A stretch of DNA of 64,000 nt from a virus: positions 1-64,000 of IMG/VR virus record IMGVR_UViG_3300018422_000003; one strand, given 5' to 3'. Positions 36,026 to 51,161 of the stretch are shown one piece after another. The translations under genes were made by a program, and so were the position numbers. Below the pieces are notes generated by a model. The model was not told the origin of the DNA. It ran no database searches and was given only the letters and a program-made list of their open reading frames with translations. The number at the start of each line of letters is the position of its first letter. The stretch's first letter is position 1.

Positions 36026-37168
36026 TTATCCGAGGACGCGGATTGCTTTTCTGGGGTCGAGAGTCTTGACTCCAAATAAAGAATCAATTCTCACATAGGT
36101 TCTTAGGTCTTTCGCCTCGTACCAGACGCTTGCGCGAATGGTGATGTTGCCGATGCTTGCCGTGTACACGCTGGCGCCGGGCGCATTCGGTACCTTCAGC
36201 GGACGGGTGACGAGCGCGAAGGCGTTCTTGGCAAACGCGATGTTGACGTCGTGGCTGGCGATGATCGTCACGGACTGGGTGCTGACCACAGCCGCGCGAA
36301 GCGCCGGGAAGATGGGCAGCGTTGCGGCCGAGGCGGAGTGAGCGGTGTCGGCGGTGACGTTGTAGCTGCACACGCCGAGGACGGCGCCGTGATCGAGGGT
36401 GATGATATCGCCCTTTTTCGCGTTCGCTGTCATGCCGGTAACCGCCAGCGTTCCGGCGACGATCGAGCCCGCGTTGAGCACCGACGCGGCTTGGTTGCTG
36501 GAGCAGGTTACCGTTCCGGCAATGCCCGTTACGTGGCGCGCCAGGCGGTTGCTGTTTGTGTAGCTCATCCCGAACTTGCGTGTGAGCTGACCTTCGGTCT
36601 GCTGCGCCGGCGAGCCGGACACGTAGTCCTGATAGAACACTTGGTTGTATTTGTTGTGGGCCTTCGGTCCGAGCACGACGGAGCGATCCGTCTCGGCAAC
36701 ATTCAGGGTGTTGAATTTCTCCTGGATGTCCGTGCCGAGGGCGCTGATCGTGGCCGGGGTCGTTCCGGCGATGCCGGTGATATTGCCAACGTCGGAGTAC
36801 AGGCCGACGATTGCATCTTCATACGCGCCGCCGAGAGCTTCCGCTGCCGGTTTCGCGAAATCCGACTGCAAGTCGCGGATCGTCATCGACGCTTCTTTGT
36901 CGCCGATCTCATAGACGACCTGCTTCCACTGGTCGAGGCGGACCTCGACGTTGTCGGCAGTCGGCTTTACGCTGACGAAGCTGTCGGGGTCAACGTTTGT
37001 CGCCACCATGGTGTGCGGCATGCGCGTGTTGACGACATCGCCAACGGACTGAACCTGCGCATCGAAATCACGATGCACCAGGCCTGCGAACTTCAAAGTC
37101 GGAAAGAGCTGCATGAGCGTTTCTTGCGCCCATAGCTCGGGTTTGTATACGTCTAAAAGTGCTGCCAC
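36026..37168 (-). CDS. Major capsid protein (P22 coat-like)
   Basis: 380 residues. The start VYKPELWAQETLMQLFPTLK, then LVHRDFDAQVQSVGDVVNTR and QWKQVVYEIGDKEASM, is typical of the P22-coat-type (HK97 fold) proteins; a beta-rich insertion lies in the middle (GTLAVTGMTANAKKGDIITL, positions about 235-255), as in P22 gp5. The end IRASVWYEAKDLRTYVRIDS is the conserved C-terminal strand. It follows the scaffold gene in transcription order, as expected. Confidence 0.88.
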   Translation of the reverse strand: MAALLDVYKPELWAQETLMQLFPTLKFAGLVHRDFDAQVQSVGDVVNTRMPHTMVATNVDPDSFVSVKPTADNVEVRLDQWKQVVYEIGDKEASMTIRDLQSDFAKPAAEALGGAYEDAIVGLYSDVGNITGIAGTTPATISALGTDIQEKFNTLNVAETDRSVVLGPKAHNKYNQVFYQDYVSGSPAQQTEGQLTRKFGMSYTNSNRLARHVTGIAGTVTCSSNQAASVLNAGSIVAGTLAVTGMTANAKKGDIITLDHGAVLGVCSYNVTADTAHSASAATLPIFPALRAAVVSTQSVTIIASHDVNIAFAKNAFALVTRPLKVPNAPGASVYTASIGNITIRASVWYEAKDLRTYVRIDSLFGVKTLDPRKAIRVLG

Positions 37169-38146: not shown

Positions 38147-41100
38147 TTATCGGAGGGCCGGAAGGTACAGCGCCGCGCGGTTGGCCGGGCAGGCGACCGT
38201 CACGAAATACGCCGTGTCCTCGATCAGATCCGCGATCGATACCGAGCGGTTGCGGCTGCCGCCGCCGTCCGATATGCGTGTCCCGCTGCCCGGATCGGAC
38301 GACGTCGAATACCAGACTTGGCAGGCCGCCGCGCCAGGCATGTCGTAACGAATGGTCGCCGCCGTTGGGGCCTGCGCCGAAATGCGGTGATTGAAAGCCA
38401 CGGCAAAGGCGGTATCGAGCGCGAGGAAATCGACGCCCGCATTCCGCTTGTCGGTAGCCGCCGCGAGAGCCGGAGCGCCGGGAGCGAGCCGGAAGTTGGC
38501 CGGGTCAACGGCAGAGCCGAGGCAGACCGATCCGCACTGCATCAGCGCCGCCGCGATCCGGGCGTTGGCCGTTGTGCCGCCGCTCAGACAGGTAAACGAC
38601 CCTGCCGGAAAGCCCGTCATCGCCGTATTGCAGTCCGATTGAGTCCAGGTATAGGTGCTGCTGGTGGACGCGTAATGCGCGTCGCTGTCGGTGTTTTTGA
38701 CAGTCGGGATTACCACGTTTCCCGCCGTGGTCGCGTTCTTGTTTGCGCCGGCGAACTTGACGTATTGCCCGGTGAGCGAAGGCGTTGAGCCAAAGGCCTG
38801 CCAAGCGTTCTGGCCCACGATGCCGCCGCCGTTGTCGGTCGAGGCGGTGAAGAAATTATTGGTTACGCTCAGGCCTTCCCCGGTGCCATAGATGAAGCTC
38901 AGCCATTCGCCTTGCTTGCCCCGGAAATCAATCGTCGTATTGTGATCGATCACGACATCCTCGGTTGTGAGGTTGAGCGCAACGGTATAGCCGCACAGCC
39001 CGCCGCCGACGTCAGCGGTCGGACTCGCGTCCCAGACCCGGTTGTCGAGCGCGTACAGCAGGTTGTTTCTGAAGACAATCCGTTTGGTGGGGCCCGCGCC
39101 AACACCGTCCGCATACGTGTCCTGCCCGTTGACATGAAAGACGCTGGCGCCGTTGCGGAAGATGTTATTCCGCACCATCACGTCAACGCCTTGGTTGCCG
39201 GTGTTGGTGGACGTTCCGCGCGGGCTGACCGCGATGAAAGGTCCACACGGTGTCCAGTCCGCCCAATTGCCGTCGTATAGGTTGCCTTCGATCACGGCGC
39301 GCTGAATCTGCTTGAACTCGGTTGCGTGCCGCTTGGGATAGTAGCGGCCGTTCGATGTGCTCGATCCGGTCCGGTAGGCCGGGTCGGAGTAAAAGGTGTT
39401 GCCGCGTATGGTGATGTCGGTAACGGGCGTTGCGCTGCTGCCCTCCTGCGCGAAGATGCTAATTCCGACAAGGTTTTCAAAGCGGTTGTTCTGGAACTTG
39501 ACGTAAGAGGAATTCGTGAAATCGATGCCCGTCGTCGTGTGATGGTAATAGTTGTGGAGGGAGCCTTGAATAATGCCGTTGCGTACCGCGAGCCATGCAT
39601 TGAAGTCCTTCACGAGACTATCGACGATGGCGCTATTGGTATTAGTTCCGGTGATTACCATTCCCGTAAGGAACCGCGTCGGCCATCCGCTGGAGCGGAC
39701 CACGGAGCGGTCGAGAATCATGCGGCTGGTGTTGGCCGCAAAGGTCAGCAGGGGCGGTTCCATGCCGGGATCGAAGGTGACCGCGCCGCCGCTGACGTAT
39801 GCGCCATTTCCGGCCGCGTCGTCGAGCTGCAGCGTATTCGGTCCGAGGACGGTGAAGGTATGCGCGCCGTTGGCCGCCGTGTTCCCGAGCACGCCATCGA
39901 TTGAGATCGCCTCGCGGAATCGGGCCTCCCCGCAATCGGACGCGCACGTCTGAGCGTAGTTGAGCCCGGTCTGCATCCAGCGATTCGTGAGCAGCAGTCC
40001 CGAGGTACTGGTGGCGAGGATGCCGTCGAGGCCGGTGATCGGCGTATTCCGAAACTCCATCTGTGAGCGCCGCGATCCGTCCGCGATCGCACCCCAACTG
40101 CCGGCGAAGGTGAAGGTCGCCTCCACCCGCGGTGAGGTCACGGTCGCGGTAAACGATGTGATCTCCATCCACGGTTCAACGGGCAGGCCGTGCGGAGTCT
40201 CGGTCGTGATGACGATGGGCGTTGCGTTGGTCGCGCTGGTGATCCGGTGCGCGAGCGCCTGTGTCGCTTTGCCGCCGCCCGCATAGCAGGAGCTTGTGGC
40301 GCAGGCGATTGAGGAATTCTGATAGCTGAACTCCGTCGTATTGTGTACAGCGATGGGCGCGGTCAGATTCGGCCCTCGGCCGGGGAATCCGGTCACGCCG
40401 CTTACGGTCACCATTTGGTGCGTAATGAAGCCGTGCGGCGCGCTGGTGGTCATGCGTCCCGCGTCGGTTACCGCCGTGATCGTGAACTGGCGCGGCGTGT
40501 GATTGGCGACCGATTCCGACGTGAAATCGATCCCGACGAAGCGCCAGCCTGCGGTCGTATTCGTGTTGATAAAAACGCTGTGCGCGTTGCCGTCATTGAA
40601 GTTGTGCGGCCGGATGAGCTGCGCCATATTCGGCAGATCGGCCTCGGTCACGCGCGTGCCTTCGGGCGGCAGCAGAGCATGCGCGCTGGTTCTCACCACG
40701 CAAGTGCCCGCCCCGCTCTTGGCCGGGAGCGTAACCCGCTGCGCGCAGGACAGCCCGGCTGTAATGGTGACGGTATGATTCAGCGCCGTATCGGCCGCGC
40801 CGCAGGCCGTGAGCTGCGTCTGTAGCTGGCCGCATGAGGTAACAGCGAAGTCCGATCCGTTGATGGTGGGATAAGCCGTGTTGACTTCCGCCGGCGCGGT
40901 CGGCGGTACCGGGTGCACTTCCGGCTGAGCCTCCAAGGTGACGGTGGCAACGTCATCCGAGCACGTATACCCGGTTCCTGGCGCGTCGCACTCCCAGGTG
41001 GATGCATTCGAGACTGGCTTGAAGTAAACGGTCGAGCCAGGAACGGCGCTGAAGGCGCACCAGCGCCGCAACTGGCTATAGGCGACGGATGTGATTGTCG

Positions 41101-41275
41101 CGGTCGAACTTCCCAGCGCCGATGTGGCGCCATAGGCGCAGTAGGAGGCTCCGCCGGTGGCGGTGATCTCCCACTTGGCATATACCGTTCCGTGCGAGAC
41201 AGAGACTACAAGATTTGAGATCGTCTGAGCGAACGATACCGTCGCCAGCAGCAGCGTGAGAAGTAAGAGTTTCAT
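38147..41275 (-). CDS. Large exported parallel-beta-helix-like protein
   Basis: 1042 residues from ATG 41275, with a Sec signal peptide (MKLLLLTLLLATVSFAQT). A cysteine-rich beta part (about 20-380) precedes a right-handed beta-helix-like middle (about 500-830) with repeated short strands such as DITIRGNTFYSDP, VMVRNNIFRNGASVFHV and VVIDHNTTIDFRG. The C-terminus has a fibronectin-like phrase (ATIRYDMPGAAACQVWYSTS). Such helices often bind or cut surface polysaccharide. It lies in the virion gene module but is predicted to be exported through the membrane. Confidence 0.72.
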   Translation of the reverse strand: MKLLLLTLLLATVSFAQTISNLVVSVSHGTVYAKWEITATGGASYCAYGATSALGSSTATITSVAYSQLRRWCAFSAVPGSTVYFKPVSNASTWECDAPGTGYTCSDDVATVTLEAQPEVHPVPPTAPAEVNTAYPTINGSDFAVTSCGQLQTQLTACGAADTALNHTVTITAGLSCAQRVTLPAKSGAGTCVVRTSAHALLPPEGTRVTEADLPNMAQLIRPHNFNDGNAHSVFINTNTTAGWRFVGIDFTSESVANHTPRQFTITAVTDAGRMTTSAPHGFITHQMVTVSGVTGFPGRGPNLTAPIAVHNTTEFSYQNSSIACATSSCYAGGGKATQALAHRITSATNATPIVITTETPHGLPVEPWMEITSFTATVTSPRVEATFTFAGSWGAIADGSRRSQMEFRNTPITGLDGILATSTSGLLLTNRWMQTGLNYAQTCASDCGEARFREAISIDGVLGNTAANGAHTFTVLGPNTLQLDDAAGNGAYVSGGAVTFDPGMEPPLLTFAANTSRMILDRSVVRSSGWPTRFLTGMVITGTNTNSAIVDSLVKDFNAWLAVRNGIIQGSLHNYYHHTTTGIDFTNSSYVKFQNNRFENLVGISIFAQEGSSATPVTDITIRGNTFYSDPAYRTGSSTSNGRYYPKRHATEFKQIQRAVIEGNLYDGNWADWTPCGPFIAVSPRGTSTNTGNQGVDVMVRNNIFRNGASVFHVNGQDTYADGVGAGPTKRIVFRNNLLYALDNRVWDASPTADVGGGLCGYTVALNLTTEDVVIDHNTTIDFRGKQGEWLSFIYGTGEGLSVTNNFFTASTDNGGGIVGQNAWQAFGSTPSLTGQYVKFAGANKNATTAGNVVIPTVKNTDSDAHYASTSSTYTWTQSDCNTAMTGFPAGSFTCLSGGTTANARIAAALMQCGSVCLGSAVDPANFRLAPGAPALAAATDKRNAGVDFLALDTAFAVAFNHRISAQAPTAATIRYDMPGAAACQVWYSTSSDPGSGTRISDGGGSRNRSVSIADLIEDTAYFVTVACPANRAALYLPALR

Positions 41276-41282
41276 GGATTGG

Positions 41283-42572
41283 TTAGCGATACGAGATGCC
41301 CGTAGCCTCAAAAGCAAAGCGCAGCAGCTTCATCGTGTGGCTGCCCGCATCGCAGGAATAGGTCTGCCATAAGAAGTACATGGAGCCGGTTGGGAGCGAG
41401 GACAACGGGACAGGCGTCGACCACGATCCGCCGTTGACGCGGTAGCGCGCGTTGATTGTGCCCGCGACCGACGATTCAAATTCGACCGTCATGATGTTGC
41501 TTAGAGCAAAGGCCGTCGCGGTTGCCGTCAGCACGGGAGTACCGGCCGTGCGGACTTCCCACTGCCATGCGGTGTCGGAGGCGGTCTCGGTGCAGGCGTT
41601 GTTGCTGATCGCTCGCAGGCCGATAAAGTTAGCGGGCGTTGTGGTGAGCACGTCCGAAAATCCGACGCGAAAGCCGTACTGCACCGTGAAGAATTCGTCG
41701 GTGCCAAAGATGAACTGAGCCCGCCAGCCTGCATGCGTGCTGAGATCTTTGATGGATACCCGCGAGGCTGAGAGCGATAGCGAAGCGCGTCCGTTGATGC
41801 CCGAGGCGGCGAGCGATACGCCTGTGCCTTCGGCCCATGCGCCGGTCGGTGTGGTGCCGTCCGATCCGCCGGCAGTCCCGCTGACCGAGGTCTTCCATCC
41901 GAGTTGACCGAAGCCGTTCACGCCGGCCGTATTCGAGCCGCCCGGGAATTCGTCAACCAGCCGAAGAATACTCGCGTCGAACGGATCAAATTCGGCCGGT
42001 GGCGTCGGTCCTTGCGCTTCCCAGCCTGCCGCCGTGCAGATATAGAGTTTTTGTCCCGCTGAGCCGCTGCGGTATACATACACGTCGTCGTACTCGCTCG
42101 ATTCATTGCAAGCGCCTGCGGCCGGGGCCGAAGTGCCGGATGGCGGCTTGAATGCGCCTGTGTAATCGTTGCGCGCGGACCATGCGTTCGGCTGGGCGAG
42201 CCAGCCTACATATCCGTCAACGAGAGAAATTTTCGGAAGGGTGGATCCGGTTGCATAGACGACTGAGATCGCGCCGTTGTCGCCGCCGATAAATTTAACC
42301 TGCTTCCAGGCGCCGTCGATGCAGCGGTATTCGTCGGTGCCGTCGAGGATGTCCTCGGTACGGACCGCTTCTCCGGTCGCGCAGGAGCCGGGGAGCGCTG
42401 AGCTGAGCACGACCTTCCACGGAATCGAGGCGGTAGAGTTGGCGGCGCTGAAGACGGTCGTGATGTTTGAGACGTCCGTGCCCTCGCCGCCGCCGGTGGA
42501 CGGGGGAGGGAAGGACTGAGCCGCCGCGCTGAGCGCGAGCAGAAAGAGAGAGAGGGTCTGTTTAGAATTCAT
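41283..42572 (-). CDS. Exported protein with C-terminal jelly-roll-like domain
   Basis: 429 residues. Signal peptide SLFLLALSAAAQS is followed by PPPSTGGGEG. Residues about 210-429 look like a ConA-like jelly-roll: RAQFIFGTDEFFTVQYGFRV, then TAWQWEVRTAGTPVLTATAT and VEFESSVAGTINARYRVNGG. The centre has further beta-strands with SGTSAPAAGACN. It begins 11 bp before the end of the next upstream gene and 8 bp before the beta-helix gene. A receptor- or polysaccharide-binding role at the host surface is inferred. Confidence 0.65.
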   Translation of the reverse strand: MNSKQTLSLFLLALSAAAQSFPPPSTGGGEGTDVSNITTVFSAANSTASIPWKVVLSSALPGSCATGEAVRTEDILDGTDEYRCIDGAWKQVKFIGGDNGAISVVYATGSTLPKISLVDGYVGWLAQPNAWSARNDYTGAFKPPSGTSAPAAGACNESSEYDDVYVYRSGSAGQKLYICTAAGWEAQGPTPPAEFDPFDASILRLVDEFPGGSNTAGVNGFGQLGWKTSVSGTAGGSDGTTPTGAWAEGTGVSLAASGINGRASLSLSASRVSIKDLSTHAGWRAQFIFGTDEFFTVQYGFRVGFSDVLTTTPANFIGLRAISNNACTETASDTAWQWEVRTAGTPVLTATATAFALSNIMTVEFESSVAGTINARYRVNGGSWSTPVPLSSLPTGSMYFLWQTYSCDAGSHTMKLLRFAFEATGISYR

Positions 42573-43004: not shown

Positions 43005-43658
43005 TTAGCTTGCCAGATCTTTGACCAGACTCGAGACGATCTCTTTGACCTTGGCGAGCACGACGGCGCGGTTGGCCGGGCTGAGCCCGTACCAGGGGTC
43101 GATCCGCTGATTCCCCTTTGCTTTCTTGTGCTCTTCCTCGCGCCGGAAGCCGATATGGACGCTCGACGGGTTTTGGCTGACGATCCCGATACTGTTGAGC
43201 ATCCGGCCGCTTTCCTCAAGATCCCGGTAGCCGGGCTTGCCCTTGGCGCGCTTATACTCCGAGCGATTGTTATAACGTACGCTCTTCTTGGAGTTGGTGA
43301 TCTTCGCCTTCACCGCGTCAGGCTTGGCGACCGCGCCCGCCGCCTTTTGCTCCTTGCCCTTGTGATGAAAGGTGGCCAGTCCCGCGCGCTTGATTTTGAG
43401 GATGTCTGAGGCGGTCAGGACCTCGCGGCCTCGCAGGTTTGTCTTGGTGCGGCCCTTTCCGGTCAGCGGTATATAGACCGGGCTGGCCGAGTACGGCTTG
43501 GCGGATTGATCGAGCAGGTTTCGCCCGGCTCGCGCGCGGGCGGTGATCTCATGCACCGCCACGCCCGCGAGATAGGTGATGTTGGAAGGCGCAAGAACCG
43601 GGGCCTTGAACCGGAGCAGCTTATCGGCATACATGAAAACGGAGGTGCCGTAAGCCAT
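43005..43658 (-). CDS. Head morphogenesis-type protein (gp10-like)
   Basis: 217 residues. ASNITYLAGVAVHEITARAR and GLATFHHKGKEQKAAGAV, then SVRYNNRSEYKRAKGKPGYR and GFRREEEHKKAKGNQRIDPW; the end YGLSPANRAVVLAKVKEIVS. The pattern of a helical core with the RIDPWYGLSPAN phrase is that of a phage head-tail or virion-morphogenesis protein. It is encoded between portal/MuF genes and the exported trio. Confidence 0.55.
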   Translation of the reverse strand: MAYGTSVFMYADKLLRFKAPVLAPSNITYLAGVAVHEITARARAGRNLLDQSAKPYSASPVYIPLTGKGRTKTNLRGREVLTASDILKIKRAGLATFHHKGKEQKAAGAVAKPDAVKAKITNSKKSVRYNNRSEYKRAKGKPGYRDLEESGRMLNSIGIVSQNPSSVHIGFRREEEHKKAKGNQRIDPWYGLSPANRAVVLAKVKEIVSSLVKDLAS

Positions 43659-44219: not shown

Positions 44220-44672
44220 TTATGACTCGTTCGCCATTTCGCGGAAGTACTCGATAAACAGCTTGTCGGCTTCGCTCCACTGTTTGGACGCCCGTACCGC
44301 CGCGCCGTCTTTCCAGGCCGCCAGCTCTTCATTCGTAGCGAGGAACTCGACCGTGAGCCGGTGGCCGTCATCGGTATACAGCCGCAAGTCGTCGTCGCGC
44401 TTTTCCCAAGTGCGGATGAGCTTCAAGTGGACATGCTGCTGGCCGGTCGATTCCGGCCAGCCCAGCTCCCGCCAGGCGACCCAAAAATCGAGGCCGTCCG
44501 TGCCCGCGTGAGGCAGCACGCGGACGACGCGCCACGCGTCCACAACCCACAGATCCATGCCTTTGTCGTCGGGCGCGTCGCCGCTGCTGGGCATGTTCAC
44601 GAATGCCCGCGAACCCTCGCGGTTGAACTTCTCAAACAGCTCGGCCGTAATGGCTTCAACAGTGGCTTCCAC
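44220..44672 (-). CDS. Hypothetical phage protein
   Basis: 150 residues, starting MEATVEAITAELFEKFNREG. Predicted alpha/beta: GMDLWVVDAWRVVRVLPHAG, QHVHLKLIRTWEKRDDDLRL and ADKLFIEYFREMANES at the end. No family recognised. It precedes the 43858 gene with a 32-bp gap. Confidence 0.5.
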   Translation of the reverse strand: MEATVEAITAELFEKFNREGSRAFVNMPSSGDAPDDKGMDLWVVDAWRVVRVLPHAGTDGLDFWVAWRELGWPESTGQQHVHLKLIRTWEKRDDDLRLYTDDGHRLTVEFLATNEELAAWKDGAAVRASKQWSEADKLFIEYFREMANES

Positions 44673-44727: not shown

Positions 44728-47700
44728 TTAGTACCTTGAGCCGGCCTGTATGACTTTTTCAATCGGACGGCCATCGGGGAACTTCGTGATTCCGTGCTTG
44801 CGGAATACGGCGAGGACCTCTTGGCGCTCATGCTCGTCCAGCGTTTTGACGTGATCGATTTCGTGCAGCAGAGACAGCGTGTTTTTCAAAATGGTCTCAT
44901 TACCGGAATGCAGCGAGTACTTCTTAAATTCAGAGATCGTAGAACCGCGCTCTGTCGACACGGTGTCGCCGGTCACGCGGCCGTACTTATCGCCGTCGTA
45001 GCTGATCGCGTCCATGCGGCGCAGGTTGCGTACTTTGAAATAAATCTGCGACTTCGTGTTAGCGGCTTTTTGAATACGAGTGAAGACGTAGCTGCCGCCG
45101 CCGCTTTTAATATCGGCGGTCGCTGAGCCTGCGCCCTTGCGTGTGATTCCGGTGCGGAGCTTTTCGGTGGTCGATACCATCGAGGCATTGTTGGGCAGAG
45201 CCACGTCGAAAAATTCGTTTAGCTTGGCGGACGCATTGCCGAACTTGATGTCATGAACGAGACGGTACTCGCCCAGTTGTTCGTTGAGCTGTTGCTCCGT
45301 TAGATCAAAACGGTACTGATGACGGTTGCCTGCCTGCTCGCCGTGTTTATCCCATCGCTGCTCGTACTGACCCTCGGGCTTATATTCGGGCAGCTTGGTC
45401 ACATCCGGAACGCCGAGGCGGCGCGACCAATACGCGCGCATTTCAACCACGCGCGCCGCGTCGGACGTGTTCTCCGTCTTGTGTTTAGCCACCAGCTCCT
45501 TCCATTCGGCGGACGTGTGCGCATTGGCGACGTACGTCGCCTTTTGTAAATACAGCAGCTCCTCGTCCGTCTTCGTCGCCGCCTTCGTGTTCAGCCCGGT
45601 CTCCGATAGCCTTTTGAGCGCGTGCTCGACCTGCTTGGGATCGACCGCGCCGGGGACCATTACCTCCAGCGTTCCGTGGAACGTGAATGACTTCGTGTTT
45701 GTGTCCCCCTTGCCCTCGCTGTACGGAATGTAGCGAACGCGAACGCCATCCTTCCAGGTGACGTTATACTGCTGCAGCCCGGCGCCCGCGCCTGTATACA
45801 CCGAGCTGAGCGACACCTGCTCCTCAGCGACGATTATGCTGCCGTTTTTGATTTCCTTGGAATCAACCCGAGCCCCGGTTTGCTTGACGGTGAACTGCTT
45901 TTCTCCCGTTTGTATGGCGCCTTTATTCGCGGCTTGATCCTCCAGCTTCTTCAGCCGGGCGCGCTCTTTCGTGACCGCGCTCGTCCAGTCTGTGAATTCC
46001 TTTTTGAGCTGTTTCACCTGCTCGATCGACATCTGCCCGCCCCATCCAAAGGCCCACGCCTTGGAATCATCGGGCGTGCTCAGCGACACGTTACCGACTC
46101 CGTTCACAAGATTGCTGAAGATCTGCTTGGACACGGGCGCGTGCGGGATTGGGACCAGCTCCACGTCGGACTTCGATGATGCCTTGTTGCTGTCGTCGTC
46201 ATCGTCATCATTTTTAGCCACACCCGGATCGAGGCCGAGGCCGCGCAGGAAATCGTCCTGCGCTTCAAGCCGCAGCTTCATCCGCAGCATTGTGCGGTCG
46301 CCCGCTTTGGTTTTTTCCTGCCACACGAGAACGTTCTGATCCTCGATCTGATCCTTATCGATAGCCAGCGTTTTGCCTTGCCAGCCGTTAGCTTTGGCCG
46401 TCGCGACATGCGCCAGGTTGCGCTCGCCAAGGTGAGCCAGATCGCCTGTCTCCGCCTCTTCCTCGGGCGCCGGATCATCCAGCACAACGCCCTTTTTCTT
46501 GGCGCGCTGTGCCCGCGTGTAAGCGTTGCGGGCGAGCCGCTTGGCCTCCGCCTCATCCTCGACGTTCAATACCGTAGCGGCCGCCGTTTGCGCGGCGGCG
46601 GCAGCTACATCGGCCGCCTTCTGAGCTGACGAGGCGGCCTCGGTAACATCCGATTTCTCGTCCTCGTCGATTTCCTTCTGCAGCGATTTCAGCTCCGATA
46701 AAGGCAGCCCATCGAGGAGGCCCTGCTCGTATTCGGACAAACCGTTGTAGCCGAGCGCCTCATGCTTTTTAACGATTTCTTTCTGCTCGTGTTTTTCCTG
46801 CTCGGTCGGCGCGAGATGCGGCTGCTTCTTCTGAGCGCTCGTCGGGGTGAGCGCGACCGTATCCGCGTCGTTAAGGAATGTGCTTTTGAAATCCGCGCCC
46901 GGGGTAACGAGGTGCGTCAGCGTGCCGTCCGCTTTGCTCCAGACGTAACCGCCCTTGACGCTGTCCCATGTCGCGGTCCAATTCGTATTCTTGTTTTGAT
47001 ACTTCGCCGCGAGGCCGGGCGGAGGTTCATCGGCGGCCTTTTTCGTCGCCGCCTTCGGAGGCTTCGGCGCCGCCGGCATGATTGGCGTCTGCGCGACCAT
47101 GGCTTTGTTCTGCGAGGCCTTGGTCGTGCCGACGACCGACTTCTTCATCTGATCGGGAGACGTGACGGTATCGGTCGCCAGCGTGCCGTCAGGCTTGACC
47201 CAGACGTAACCGCCTTTGCCGCCGTCCCACTTTGCCGACCATTCGCTGTACTGGTTCTTGTAGACGGCCGCCATTCCGGGCGGTACCGGAGCCGCGTTGG
47301 CTTCGGCGGCGGCCTTTGCCTCGGCCGCCAGCTTTTCGGCGGCAGCGAGCTTGGCTTCGTATTCCGCTTTTTCGGCTGCCGCCTTTACTTTGGCCGCAGC
47401 TTCCTCGTTAGCTTTTTGGAGCGCCAGCGCATCCGCCGCTTTCTGATTGGCGGCGGCAATCGCATCCGCATGTGCCTTTTTCGCCGCCGCCATCTTGGCC
47501 GGATCGAAGCTGAAATGCGGGTCGCTGGTCAGCTTGCGATAGTACGTTTCGAAATCCGAGCGCAGGCTGTTCTTGCGCGCGATCGCCGCCGCCTTGAATT
47601 TGGCTGCGGCAGCCGGGCCGCCCGGATGATTCGCCGCGTAGCCTTCGACCGCCTTCAGGTAATCCGCGTCGCTGATCTTTTCAGCGGCCTCGATCGCGGG

Positions 47701-49242
47701 CAGGGAATCGGCCGGATTGAATTGGACCTTGCCCGCCTTGATGGCCTTGCCAAGCGTGTTGTAGAGCGGCTCCTGCTCACCGAAGCTTTTATTCGGGTGA
47801 TAGTCGACGCTGAGCTGATCGTTGCCGATGTGCTTGTACGCCTGCGCTTTGTCGATCCCGTAGATTGCGCCCGATTTGGTCCGCAGGAACTGGCCGGGGT
47901 GGCCGTCATGATTGCTGATCAGCCAATCGAGAACGTGCTCGCGCTGGATCTGCTGAATCTCAAACGCCGACAACGATTCCATCGGTACGGGCTTGTTCTG
48001 CCCACCGTTCGTGAAGTCGATTTTCTTTGCAAGATCCGGAACGAATTTCTGAGCGGATCCGAACTTCCCGCCGAGCGTCATCGTGTGAACTTCGACGGCG
48101 GTTTGAGGGTTGACCAGGCGCGCTACATTAGCCGCCGCCTCCTCCGCGTACGGAATGATTTTCTTTGACGCATCGACGGGTTTGAACAGCCAGTCGTTGC
48201 CCGCCGGATCGGTCCAGATCTCCTTGGCGTGAGCGCCGCCGAGGCCGGGGTTAGCGGACTTGAGCGCCCATGGTTTCGGCGCAGGCGGCTTGGGCGCTTC
48301 CGGAGGCGCGGGTGGTACGTAAGTGCCGGGTCGCTTCTCAAAGCCCAACGCTTCGCGCGTGGCGGCCATAGCGACCGCCTGCGGCATCTTCCCGCTGGCG
48401 CCGGTATCGGCAGCCTTCGGCGCGGGCATGTCCGCTGGCCACGGCATCCAGACGTGACGGCAATTCCAGCCGCCGCCGTAGCGCAGCGCCGGGAGCAATG
48501 GCGTTTTTGAAAGCTGCTTCAGCTCCGCATCCATCGCGTGAATATCTTTGAGCGTGTACAGCTTGTCGATTTTCGCGAGGCAGAACGGGCGGTTCTTAAT
48601 GTCCTTCGGCCCGCGATAGGTGAAGTTTTTGATTCCGGCGGTTTGCCAGATCTTCATCGACACGGTCCGGTCGTAAACAACCAGCGCCGTGTCCGCGTAC
48701 GTAGCCGCGTAGTTCTTCAGCTTGAGGTCGAGCGTTGCCGCAATCTTGTCGATGAGCGGCGCCCGCGCGGTACCGAGCAGCGCGTTCTGGATGACTGCCT
48801 GCCCGACCGATTTCACGGCCTCTGTGCCGAGGCCGGACAGGTAATCGTAATCGATATTCTTGAGCTGCTTTAGGGCGTTGCGATCGAGCGGCGCGAGCCG
48901 TTCGTCGGGAAGCTTCAGCGCCTTCACGGTGGCGATCGCATTCTCGACCGATTGATCGAAGCTGCCGGTCAGCTCTTTTACCAGCTCGGGATAGCCTTCG
49001 CTGTTGAGCTGCTTTTGTAGCTCAGCCTGGAGCTGCAGCAGCGATTGCGCCTGCGCCGCGACCTTCGGTGTCAGCTCGCCGGCGGAAAGGATTTCGATGA
49101 CGCGCGAGCGCATGGCAGCGACCGTCTTCTTCAACCCGGCTTCGAACACGGCGAGCGCCTTGGCCTGCGAGGTAATCGAGGCGTTGGAGATTTCGGTAAC
49201 CGCGCCAAGCTGGCGCTCCGGTTGATTGTTATAGCGCGGCAT
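44728..49242 (-). CDS. Giant MuF-type head protein with kinase-like and ART-like parts
   Basis: 1504 residues. Residues about 20-270 are the SPP1-gp7/MuF head-morphogenesis domain (TAGIKNFTYRGPKDIKNRPF, then GGGWNCRHVWMPW). Residues about 325-545 resemble PI3/4-kinase or HipA-like folds: WLFKP (lysine 354), EEAAANVARLV, GSAQKFVPD, a catalytic-type NHDGHPGQFLR (aspartate 446) and YGIDKAQA (aspartate 464). Coiled coils follow (590-650), then two copies of a WxAxWD-GGYVW unit (655-690 and 740-775). The last 200 residues contain YRLVHD (arginine 1327), VSTTEK and GNETILK (glutamate 1449), reminiscent of the R-S-E triad of ADP-ribosyltransferases. Polymorphic toxin-type MuF proteins are known; activity here is inferred. 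Confidence 0.75.
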   Translation of the reverse strand: MPRYNNQPERQLGAVTEISNASITSQAKALAVFEAGLKKTVAAMRSRVIEILSAGELTPKVAAQAQSLLQLQAELQKQLNSEGYPELVKELTGSFDQSVENAIATVKALKLPDERLAPLDRNALKQLKNIDYDYLSGLGTEAVKSVGQAVIQNALLGTARAPLIDKIAATLDLKLKNYAATYADTALVVYDRTVSMKIWQTAGIKNFTYRGPKDIKNRPFCLAKIDKLYTLKDIHAMDAELKQLSKTPLLPALRYGGGWNCRHVWMPWPADMPAPKAADTGASGKMPQAVAMAATREALGFEKRPGTYVPPAPPEAPKPPAPKPWALKSANPGLGGAHAKEIWTDPAGNDWLFKPVDASKKIIPYAEEAAANVARLVNPQTAVEVHTMTLGGKFGSAQKFVPDLAKKIDFTNGGQNKPVPMESLSAFEIQQIQREHVLDWLISNHDGHPGQFLRTKSGAIYGIDKAQAYKHIGNDQLSVDYHPNKSFGEQEPLYNTLGKAIKAGKVQFNPADSLPAIEAAEKISDADYLKAVEGYAANHPGGPAAAAKFKAAAIARKNSLRSDFETYYRKLTSDPHFSFDPAKMAAAKKAHADAIAAANQKAADALALQKANEEAAAKVKAAAEKAEYEAKLAAAEKLAAEAKAAAEANAAPVPPGMAAVYKNQYSEWSAKWDGGKGGYVWVKPDGTLATDTVTSPDQMKKSVVGTTKASQNKAMVAQTPIMPAAPKPPKAATKKAADEPPPGLAAKYQNKNTNWTATWDSVKGGYVWSKADGTLTHLVTPGADFKSTFLNDADTVALTPTSAQKKQPHLAPTEQEKHEQKEIVKKHEALGYNGLSEYEQGLLDGLPLSELKSLQKEIDEDEKSDVTEAASSAQKAADVAAAAAQTAAATVLNVEDEAEAKRLARNAYTRAQRAKKKGVVLDDPAPEEEAETGDLAHLGERNLAHVATAKANGWQGKTLAIDKDQIEDQNVLVWQEKTKAGDRTMLRMKLRLEAQDDFLRGLGLDPGVAKNDDDDDDSNKASSKSDVELVPIPHAPVSKQIFSNLVNGVGNVSLSTPDDSKAWAFGWGGQMSIEQVKQLKKEFTDWTSAVTKERARLKKLEDQAANKGAIQTGEKQFTVKQTGARVDSKEIKNGSIIVAEEQVSLSSVYTGAGAGLQQYNVTWKDGVRVRYIPYSEGKGDTNTKSFTFHGTLEVMVPGAVDPKQVEHALKRLSETGLNTKAATKTDEELLYLQKATYVANAHTSAEWKELVAKHKTENTSDAARVVEMRAYWSRRLGVPDVTKLPEYKPEGQYEQRWDKHGEQAGNRHQYRFDLTEQQLNEQLGEYRLVHDIKFGNASAKLNEFFDVALPNNASMVSTTEKLRTGITRKGAGSATADIKSGGGSYVFTRIQKAANTKSQIYFKVRNLRRMDAISYDGDKYGRVTGDTVSTERGSTISEFKKYSLHSGNETILKNTLSLLHEIDHVKTLDEHERQEVLAVFRKHGITKFPDGRPIEKVIQAGSRY

Positions 49243-49244
49243 TC

Positions 49245-49634
49245 TTAGGAGGCCCGCTTTGCGCGGACGAGCGCTACGCAGGCTTCACTGATTGCCTCGA
49301 TCGCCTGCTCCTGCGCCGTATCCTCGGCTGAGTCAGGGTCGACGCCCAGCGGCGCGAGGTGCAAATGACAAAGCTCGTGTACGATATCCAGCTCCATGTC
49401 CTGAGCGCCTTTGAAGCCGGAGCGCCGGTAATCCCACGGCCGCATCAGCCGGATCGTCGCGGTCTTGCGCAGCAGATTCCAATCGATCTTGGCCTGGACT
49501 TTCGCCGGCATGTCCCGCTTGCTGGAGATGACGACCTCGACGCGCCAATCCCGCAGGCGCAGCACGCCCTGATACCAGGAGCACATCGCAGCCGCCTCGG
49601 CGGCATCATAGATAACCTCGCCCGCTGCAGCCAT
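49245..49634 (-). CDS. Zinc metalloprotease-like protein beside the portal
   Basis: 129 residues. DIVHELCHLHLAP has the HExxH motif (H86, E87, H90), the mark of zinc metalloproteases; WRVEVVISSKRDM and ATIRLMRPWDY give the preceding strands. Small phage proteins of this kind sit between portal and MuF genes in other phages. It could process the head protein or an injected protein, but only the motif is evidence. The two neighbours are 2 and 6 bp away. Confidence 0.65.
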   Translation of the reverse strand: MAAAGEVIYDAAEAAAMCSWYQGVLRLRDWRVEVVISSKRDMPAKVQAKIDWNLLRKTATIRLMRPWDYRRSGFKGAQDMELDIVHELCHLHLAPLGVDPDSAEDTAQEQAIEAISEACVALVRAKRAS

Positions 49635-49640
49635 GGCGGT

Positions 49641-51161
49641 TTACTCTTCTTCTTCGGCGCCGGGGCCGCCGGGCGCTGGCATTTCAAGCGCCGGATCTTT
49701 CATCGCCGCAATGTCGGCGGTGATTATGGCTTTGCGATCTTCAGGCAGCGAGGTGAGCAGCTTGAATACGGCGCGCTCCATCAGCTCCTGCCGCGCGCTC
49801 AGCGGCGCTCCCGCGGATTGCAGCAGGATCATTGCGTCGATGAGGTCCTTGGCGGTCGATAGATCGTACTTACGCGCGTACTGGACGTTGCCCTTCCATT
49901 CCGAGCCGAGGTATAGCCCGGCGAAATAGAGGATCTGCTTTACTGCGTCCTCCTCCCATCCGGCCATGCCTGCCAGGATCTTCTCGGCTTCGCTGAAGTC
50001 CCATTCCTTCGATACGCCGGACTGCGTGTCGTTCGCGCCGCCGCTGGTTTGGAGCGCCTTGCCCTGGATGCCCATGTGGCGCAGCGCCAGCGAGAACATC
50101 GTTCCGAAGGCTTTCCAGCCGGATTCAAACGGGCCGCTGTCGGGGGATACGTAGAAAAACTCTTCCTGCTCCTCGGGGTTGAGGTGCATGATGGTTGCCG
50201 CGCCGACGCCCGCATCGCCCGGTGACTTGAGGCTTTTGAATACGGGGACCGGAAACATTGAGCTTTCGAGGTTCTCGTCGAAGCTCGAAACCCAATTGGT
50301 CAGCAGCTGCGCAAACTTGGCCGCGTCGCGCAAAAGCGAGTCGCCGCGGAAAGCGCCGAGGCGTACGTGATACATCGGCACGACCGGAATTGCGCCGACG
50401 CTGTTGCGCCCGGTGCTTACGCCGATCCAGTGGCCTTCGACCTTCTCAAACACGATCCATTTCTCGAGAGACCAGTACCGGAGCTGCTCGGTGCAGGCGC
50501 TCGAATTCTCATCGAGCACACTGCCCTGGGACGGGGCCTCGCGCCGGAACAGAATCTCGATGGGCCTGCCGCGCTCGTCGAGCCGCCAGTTGAGCATGTC
50601 CTCACGCGGAATATGCACGAGGTACGGCCGCAGGTTTTGTTCGTGCTGATCGCGCCGGGTGATGACGGGCCGCTGCGGATCCGCCTGCGGCATGTCGATC
50701 AGGACGAAGTCGCAGCCGGTGACGGTTTTCGATGTTCGAACGGAGCTGAGGAATTGCGCGAGCGATTGGCCCTGCAGATCCGCGTCATCGAGGAACGCCG
50801 CGAAGGCGTCTCCGTTGGGCGTGATCATTGCGTTCTCGGGCTTGCCGACCGTCGCTGCGTAAAAGTCCACAATCGGGCCGACCAGATTCACATACACAGC
50901 CCGCGCCAGCCGGTGGCAGTACTTGTCGTGGCGCTCCATCGGGTACTGCCAGAGGTAGTTCTGCGTCCCGGTGTACACGCCCGAAAGGCCGGGATCGGTC
51001 TTCGGTGAGAGCATCGCCGACGATCCGGCTGCCGCCGCCGGGAGAGGATTCCGGGTGCTCGGATAGAGCGGCCCGCCGTCGTAGTGATCCCGATAAAATT
51101 TCCAGAGCGCGTTTCCGCTCGTATATACGGGGTGCCTCTGCTCTAACGCTTTGTTATCCAT
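49641..51161 (-). CDS. Portal protein
   Basis: 506 residues. Start WKFYRDHYDGGPLYPST, then the portal clip and stem segments (YCHRLARAVYVNLVGPIVDF, PYLVHIPREDMLNWRLDERG, GAIPVVPMYHVRLGAF). The C-terminus is helical with an acidic end (PGGPGAEEEE). This is the SPP1 gp6/DUF4055 type of portal, twelve copies of which form the ring for DNA passage. Its place before the protease and MuF genes and after the lysis block is unusual only in the second point. Confidence 0.86.
   Translation of the reverse strand: MDNKALEQRHPVYTSGNALWKFYRDHYDGGPLYPSTRNPLPAAAAGSSAMLSPKTDPGLSGVYTGTQNYLWQYPMERHDKYCHRLARAVYVNLVGPIVDFYAATVGKPENAMITPNGDAFAAFLDDADLQGQSLAQFLSSVRTSKTVTGCDFVLIDMPQADPQRPVITRRDQHEQNLRPYLVHIPREDMLNWRLDERGRPIEILFRREAPSQGSVLDENSSACTEQLRYWSLEKWIVFEKVEGHWIGVSTGRNSVGAIPVVPMYHVRLGAFRGDSLLRDAAKFAQLLTNWVSSFDENLESSMFPVPVFKSLKSPGDAGVGAATIMHLNPEEQEEFFYVSPDSGPFESGWKAFGTMFSLALRHMGIQGKALQTSGGANDTQSGVSKEWDFSEAEKILAGMAGWEEDAVKQILYFAGLYLGSEWKGNVQYARKYDLSTAKDLIDAMILLQSAGAPLSARQELMERAVFKLLTSLPEDRKAIITADIAAMKDPALEMPAPGGPGAEEEE

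Follow-up and report, generated by a model that had tools for sequence, protein, structure and literature searches.

Fusions of the MuF head-morphogenesis domain to ADP-ribosyltransferases (ARTs) and other enzymes have been described as injected effectors (PMC5512222, PMC9503650, PMC5576092). The EFV toxin of E. faecalis and the polyvalent proteins combine MuF with a C-terminal ART, and the prediction for them is carriage in the head followed by injection. In the accessible portions of these three surveys, the fused kinases are of other kinds, a protein kinase devoid of its C-lobe and zeta-toxin-like enzymes, and no DarT-like ART is placed in a phage head; among viruses, the portions available mention DarT-like ARTs only for arthropod viruses (ORF28). 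Here we describe a giant head protein encoded in the uncultivated virus record IMGVR_UViG_3300018422_000003 (70,089 bases), the first 64,000 nucleotides of which constitute the window analyzed. Like the known fusions, this protein possesses MuF and a C-terminal ART-like domain, but it differs from them, as far as the sources extend, in a HipA/CtkA-like kinase domain between the two and in the resemblance of its ART to DarT. We consider it reasonably probable that the giant protein is a virion-carried bifunctional effector composed of a predicted kinase and a predicted DarT-like ART, which probably reprograms bacteria as the phage DNA enters.

Four groups of described proteins share parts of this architecture. 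The minor capsid-ART fusions of the Mycobacterium prophages McProf, prophiFSQJ01-1 and their kin (BK061308-BK061312) are head proteins with the same kinase-like domain (34–38% identity) and a C-terminal ART. They differ in carrying a classical PF03496 ART and a VG15-type head domain and in lacking D1, the orphan gene that follows the giant gene, and their kinase domain is unnamed in the annotation. The head morphogenesis protein gp15 of Pseudanabaena phage Pan1 unites MuF with a C-terminal ART-like domain of the same kind, 31% identical, whereas no kinase domain and no D1 were found for it. DarT (PF14487) of the DarTG system, including the Thermus sp. 2.9 structures 7OMV-7OMY, resembles the ART end in predicted fold and has the same H-R-Y-E order of residues. 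However, DarT acts as a free toxin whose partner is a macrodomain or NADAR protein, while the ART of the giant protein belongs to a putative virion protein and has the orphan D1 as its partner, and the sequence profiles do not match. Lastly, Helicobacter pylori CtkA, HipA and Legionella MavQ have in common with the giant protein the kinase fold and the N.D.H catalytic loop, but these are stand-alone secreted, toxin-antitoxin or lipid kinases with neither a head domain nor an ART. A literature search for MuF joined to a HipA/CtkA-like kinase and a DarT-like ART found no description, most subscription journals lying outside that search.

Predicted enzymatic domains of the giant protein

The giant gene is an uninterrupted reading frame of 1504 codons with an ATG start. 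The whole protein gave no significant match in Pfam or PHROGs, and used at full length as a query of viral contigs it found no relatives. Relatives were retrieved with domain alignments as queries; the family counts given below derive from pattern-seeded searches and are biased towards closer relatives. A chance frame is most unlikely, because the kinase-like and C-terminal blocks each have relatives at 26–62% identity, with E values down to 1e-100; an antisense open reading frame of 468 aa (46762-48168) need not be invoked. The nearest relative, L006, has the same domain order from MuF through the C-terminus.

AlphaFold2 modeled residues 325–575 with a pLDDT of 96. When this model was compared with the PDB by Foldseek, CtkA (2.5e-5), MavQ (7.8e-5), HipA (4.7e-4) and PI4K were among the top matches, and the best 50 of the 69 matches at E<=0.001 were without exception protein, lipid or antibiotic kinases. 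Weak Pfam matches among 55 kinase members were to HipA_C (48/55), PI3_PI4_kinase (9) and Fam20C (8), and a PDB sequence-profile search with the domain gave no significant match. Across 97 non-redundant members the ATP-binding K354 is conserved in 99%, and the catalytic D446, H448 and the metal-binding D464 each in 100%. Position 451, a Gln in the giant protein, is Gln in 74 members, Asn in 23 and nothing else. As modeled, residues 325–575 are a kinase fold with an intact predicted active site. The sequence-only reading had recognized here a block in the order of PI3/4-kinases, marked by WLFKP (351), EEAAANVARLV (367), GSAQKFVP (395), NHDGHPGQFLR (444) and YGIDKAQA (461); the strings stand at these residues, and the assignment is borne out by the model, the Foldseek matches and the weak HipA_C and PI3_PI4_kinase matches.

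The C-terminal part, residues 930–1504, was modeled with a pLDDT of 84, mostly above 85 in the final 210 residues. Foldseek ranked four Thermus DarT entries of the PDB at positions 1–4 (probability 0.97–0.90), and all non-DarT matches listed had a probability of 0.18 or lower; PDB profile searches with the ART end gave no significant match. Conservation among 75 members is 97% for H1330, 96% for R1363, 93% for Y1385 and 100% for E1449. In the model H1330 closes one strand and Y1385 and E1449 open two others, as in ARTs. The catalytic residues of DarT are H13, R51, Y71 and E160 (PMC9967889). The H-R-Y-E order is common to both proteins, with spacings of 33-22-64 in the giant protein and 38-20-89 in DarT. 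The C-terminal domain likely has an ART-like fold; a DarT-like mechanism, that of an H-Y-E-like ART with an extra arginine, is plausible on the model, and DNA as its target would be a guess. An ART at this end had been proposed from the letters alone, with R1327, the STT at 1357 and E1449 as an R-S-E active site. All three elements are present, and structure prediction of the two blocks upheld the kinase and ART-like folds; E1449 is invariant among the members. The R-S-E site itself is rejected on conservation: Arg occupies position 1327 in 2/75 members, so that R1327 gives way to the conserved set H1330, R1363, Y1385 and E1449, and the fold match is to DarT.

Evidence for the MuF domain came from hhalign, in which a profile of the giant protein and L006 matched the MuF domains of other relatives at E 3.7e-6, against 0.12–0.27 for three control profiles. 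The first 260 residues of L006 are 52% identical to the giant protein and match phrog_595 at 1.4e-6, and other family members match Phage_Mu_F of Pfam at up to 7.9e-18. The MuF assignment of the sequence-only reading is thereby supported.

Several results weigh against a bifunctional effector with a DarT-like end. In the catalytic loop of the kinase, Gln replaces the metal-binding Asn in the giant protein and in 74/97 members. The DarT match is modest and at the level of the fold, with E values of 0.026–0.08 and TM scores normalized by target of 0.48–0.50. An hhalign comparison of the ART end (75 sequences) with DarT (12 sequences) gave P 0.01, where the kinase-domain control gave 0.006; a PF14487 search of this genome gave no match, and no macrodomain or NADAR partner was found in it. 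The giant protein's own MuF domain fails to reach PF04233 in the Pfam search, and MuF proteins of the SPP1 gp7 type have a structural role and carry no toxin.

Some of these points bear on an explanation in which the C-terminal domain is an active enzyme of ART fold that is not DarT-like in function, and instead modifies a host protein or simply hydrolyzes NAD+. The resemblance to DarT is confined to the fold, with sequence profiles unlinked, and in other relatives the same kinase is fused to R-S-E ARTs. Characterized ARTs of phage heads, e.g., T4 Alt, modify proteins (PMC5512222). Yet the only confident Foldseek matches in the PDB are DarT, with no protein-modifying ART among the matches listed, and the arginine position specific to DarT is 96% conserved. 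We regard such a function as rather unlikely.

Recurrent pairing of kinase and ART ends

The family comprises 110 proteins after removal of redundancy, and 59 of them are complete and contain both the kinase and the DarT-like ART end, so that the combination of two predicted enzymes, which the sequence-only reading could not match to any described case, is a recurrent family. In many of these proteins the two domains are connected by two further conserved blocks. Complete kinase proteins without the DarT-like end mostly bear a classical ART, PF03496 in L003, L004, L068, L071, L072, L074 and L083 and PF01129 in L064, and the incomplete L085 has a weak PF03496 match. In the kinase tree, one exchange suffices to account for DarT-like versus classical ART ends. 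The putative C-terminal toxin modules are thus swapped among kinase relatives, as in MuF polymorphic toxins. The DarT-like end without the kinase is rare (Pan1 and L090). One viral collection contains 194 candidate loci encoding the DarT-like C-terminal domain. Kinase relatives were found among Mycobacterium phage proteins, including prophage head proteins whose annotation names a fusion of minor capsid protein with ADP-ribosyltransferase, in more than 80 viral contigs, and in 45 bacterial genome loci, many of Desulfobacterota and including complete chromosomes. That the coupling recurs across the family is the best evidence for a joint role of the two domains.

The same coupling is open to another interpretation, that the kinase fold regulates or modifies the attached ART, as a pseudokinase or through use as an AMP-transferase or glutamylase, and is not a second host-directed effector. 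The kinase is nearly always accompanied by an ART end, of two kinds, and most members have Gln where a metal-binding Asn would be expected. SelO and SidJ are kinase-fold proteins with other chemistries. Against this, the Lys, both Asp and the His are kept at 99–100%, as in an active phosphotransferase, and L065, L078, L082 and L134 are stand-alone kinases in which no ART was found. We rate this interpretation as possible, though the less probable one.

The stand-alone kinase domains measure 293–431 aa and lie on phage-like or bacterial contigs. Two kinase-domain matches each are present in L084 (one protein) and L261 (two frames). The kinase domain is interrupted by an insertion in L064:1147-8484 (2445 aa) and L081:1-8481 (at least 2826 aa), and the L064 protein also matches virion RNA polymerase (phrog_2206). 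The pairing of kinase and ART is thereby seen on carriers of other kinds, L064 and also Onyinye gp16, in which no MuF was found. Phrappuccino gp195 (L267), of 2030 aa, begins with the kinase and by eye contains at least two R-S-E ART-like repeats (LWRG/LYRG, WSIDP, EQE) later in the chain.

An orphan gene linked to the DarT-like end

D1, which the sequence-only reading had missed, encodes a protein of ~158 aa in the family and lies directly after the giant gene in 53/61 loci with kinase and DarT-like end that have room for it, compared with 0/17 loci combining the kinase with other ends. It usually overlaps the giant gene by 4 bases; in the window the two are about 55 bases apart. When D1 alone was used to search the viral collection, with a query built from closer members (a narrow alignment, the wide one being too diverse), 37 loci were retrieved, and the ART end was directly upstream in 37/37. 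D1 had no match of weight in Pfam, PHROGs, the PDB or phage records. The divergent kinase and ART loci L058, L070, L077 and L080 lack it. D1 is possibly an immunity, escort or head-assembly protein, and because it is linked to the DarT-like ART end in particular, we favor an immunity or escort role.

A conserved gene of ~115 aa, D2, follows D1 at L014:8897-9238 and about 130 other loci; neither the window nor L006 yielded a copy. In many loci D2 is followed by a large protein that by eye resembles a D12-class adenine methyltransferase.

Genomic setting and remaining features

Features of the locus are compiled in Table 1. The gene order is portal, 129-aa gene, giant gene and D1, the portal lying two genes upstream of the giant gene. 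The major head protein (phrog_283, 36026-37168) and the minor tail and tape-measure proteins are encoded downstream, and the virus is therefore a tailed phage whose genes include a long-tail module. No tyrosine integrase was found in the virus record.

Table 1 Features of the giant gene and its neighbors in the window
Feature	Position	Strand	Basis
Portal protein	49641..51161	-	phrog_145, E 5e-51
129-aa gene upstream of the giant gene	49245..49634	-	Weak Peptidase_M78-like match, E 0.096, below cut-off
Giant head protein: MuF, kinase, linker/repeats, MID/beta blocks, DarT-like ART	44728..49242	-	Open frame; co-linear relative L006
MuF head-morphogenesis domain, residues 36-298	48349..49137	-	hhalign to relatives' MuF domains; phrog_595 match of L006
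Predicted kinase domain (HipA/CtkA/PI3-4K group), residues 325-575; K354, D446, H448, Q451, D464	47518..48270	-	AlphaFold2, Foldseek, conservation
Ala/Lys/Glu-rich coiled-coil-like stretch, residues about 576-655	47278..47515	-	Read directly from sequence
Pair of repeats, each ~35 aa (PPG.AA.Y.N....W.A.WD..KGGYVW.K.DGTL), near residues 668 and 755	46936..47257	-	Sequence
Blocks MID (930-1060) and beta (1110-1200), which connect the kinase with the ART	45643..46455	-	Conserved alongside the ART end in relatives
Predicted DarT-like ADP-ribosyltransferase domain, residues 1290-1504; H1330, R1363, Y1385, E1449	44731..45375	-	AlphaFold2, Foldseek, conservation
D1, orphan protein of 150 aa and candidate partner for immunity or escort	44220..44672	-	Linkage to ART-end loci

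This setting raises the alternative that the two domains ride on a head protein as passengers, structural or decayed, and that D1 is a head-assembly gene holding its place in one phage lineage. All components lie in the head module, further conserved genes come after D1 and D2, and the kinase and ART loci that diverge most are without D1. On the other side, the active-site residues are among the best-conserved positions at about 30% overall identity, and the kinase is fused to two different ART ends and also occurs in L064, with its virion RNA polymerase match, and in Onyinye gp16. We judge passenger domains very unlikely and retain the effector reading.

The two W.A.WD..KGGYVW repeats, which had been noted from the sequence, are identical at 22/35 positions (63%) and were unmatched by blastp in the relatives compared. 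A candidate macrodomain at 43005-43658 was rejected: it reached ThsA_Macro at E 0.078 only, and its sequence looks like that of a minor head/tail protein rich in lysine. The gene at 38147-41317 on the minus strand encodes 1056 aa that contain repeats of E1_FCCH type (E 4e-8) and match a beta-helix; the product is probably a tail fiber or spike.

Proposed function and implications

We propose that the MuF domain incorporates the chain into the head beside the portal, as family membership and gene order suggest, and that the chain, or a processed part of it, would enter the cell together with the DNA at infection. In the host, the HipA/CtkA-like kinase would use ATP and the DarT-like transferase NAD+, both to modify host molecules; like DarT, the transferase may act on nucleic acid. 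Because the same kinase is repeatedly fused to an ART, with ends of one kind or the other, it would most likely act in the same pathway as the attached ART, or regulate it. The linkage of D1 to the ART end suggests that D1 most likely keeps this end inactive in the producing cell, or escorts it. A bolder version, which we hold to be unlikely, is a head-borne DarT-type ART that modifies nucleic acid, is fused to a HipA/CtkA-type kinase and is restrained by D1 as an immunity protein that is neither a macrodomain nor NADAR; the DarTG anti-phage defense would then be mirrored, phage against host.

Jamet et al. reported that many MuF proteins of proteobacterial phages have C-terminal extensions of unknown domain (PMC5576092). 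The family described here may explain some of these extensions and supplies active sites that can be tested, and the strict linkage of D1 offers a ready toxin-immunity test. Proteins combining the kinase with an ART form a widespread, apparently undescribed branch of putative phage head-borne effectors. Should the ART end prove to modify DNA, a chemistry known from bacterial defense against phages would here be turned by phages on the host.
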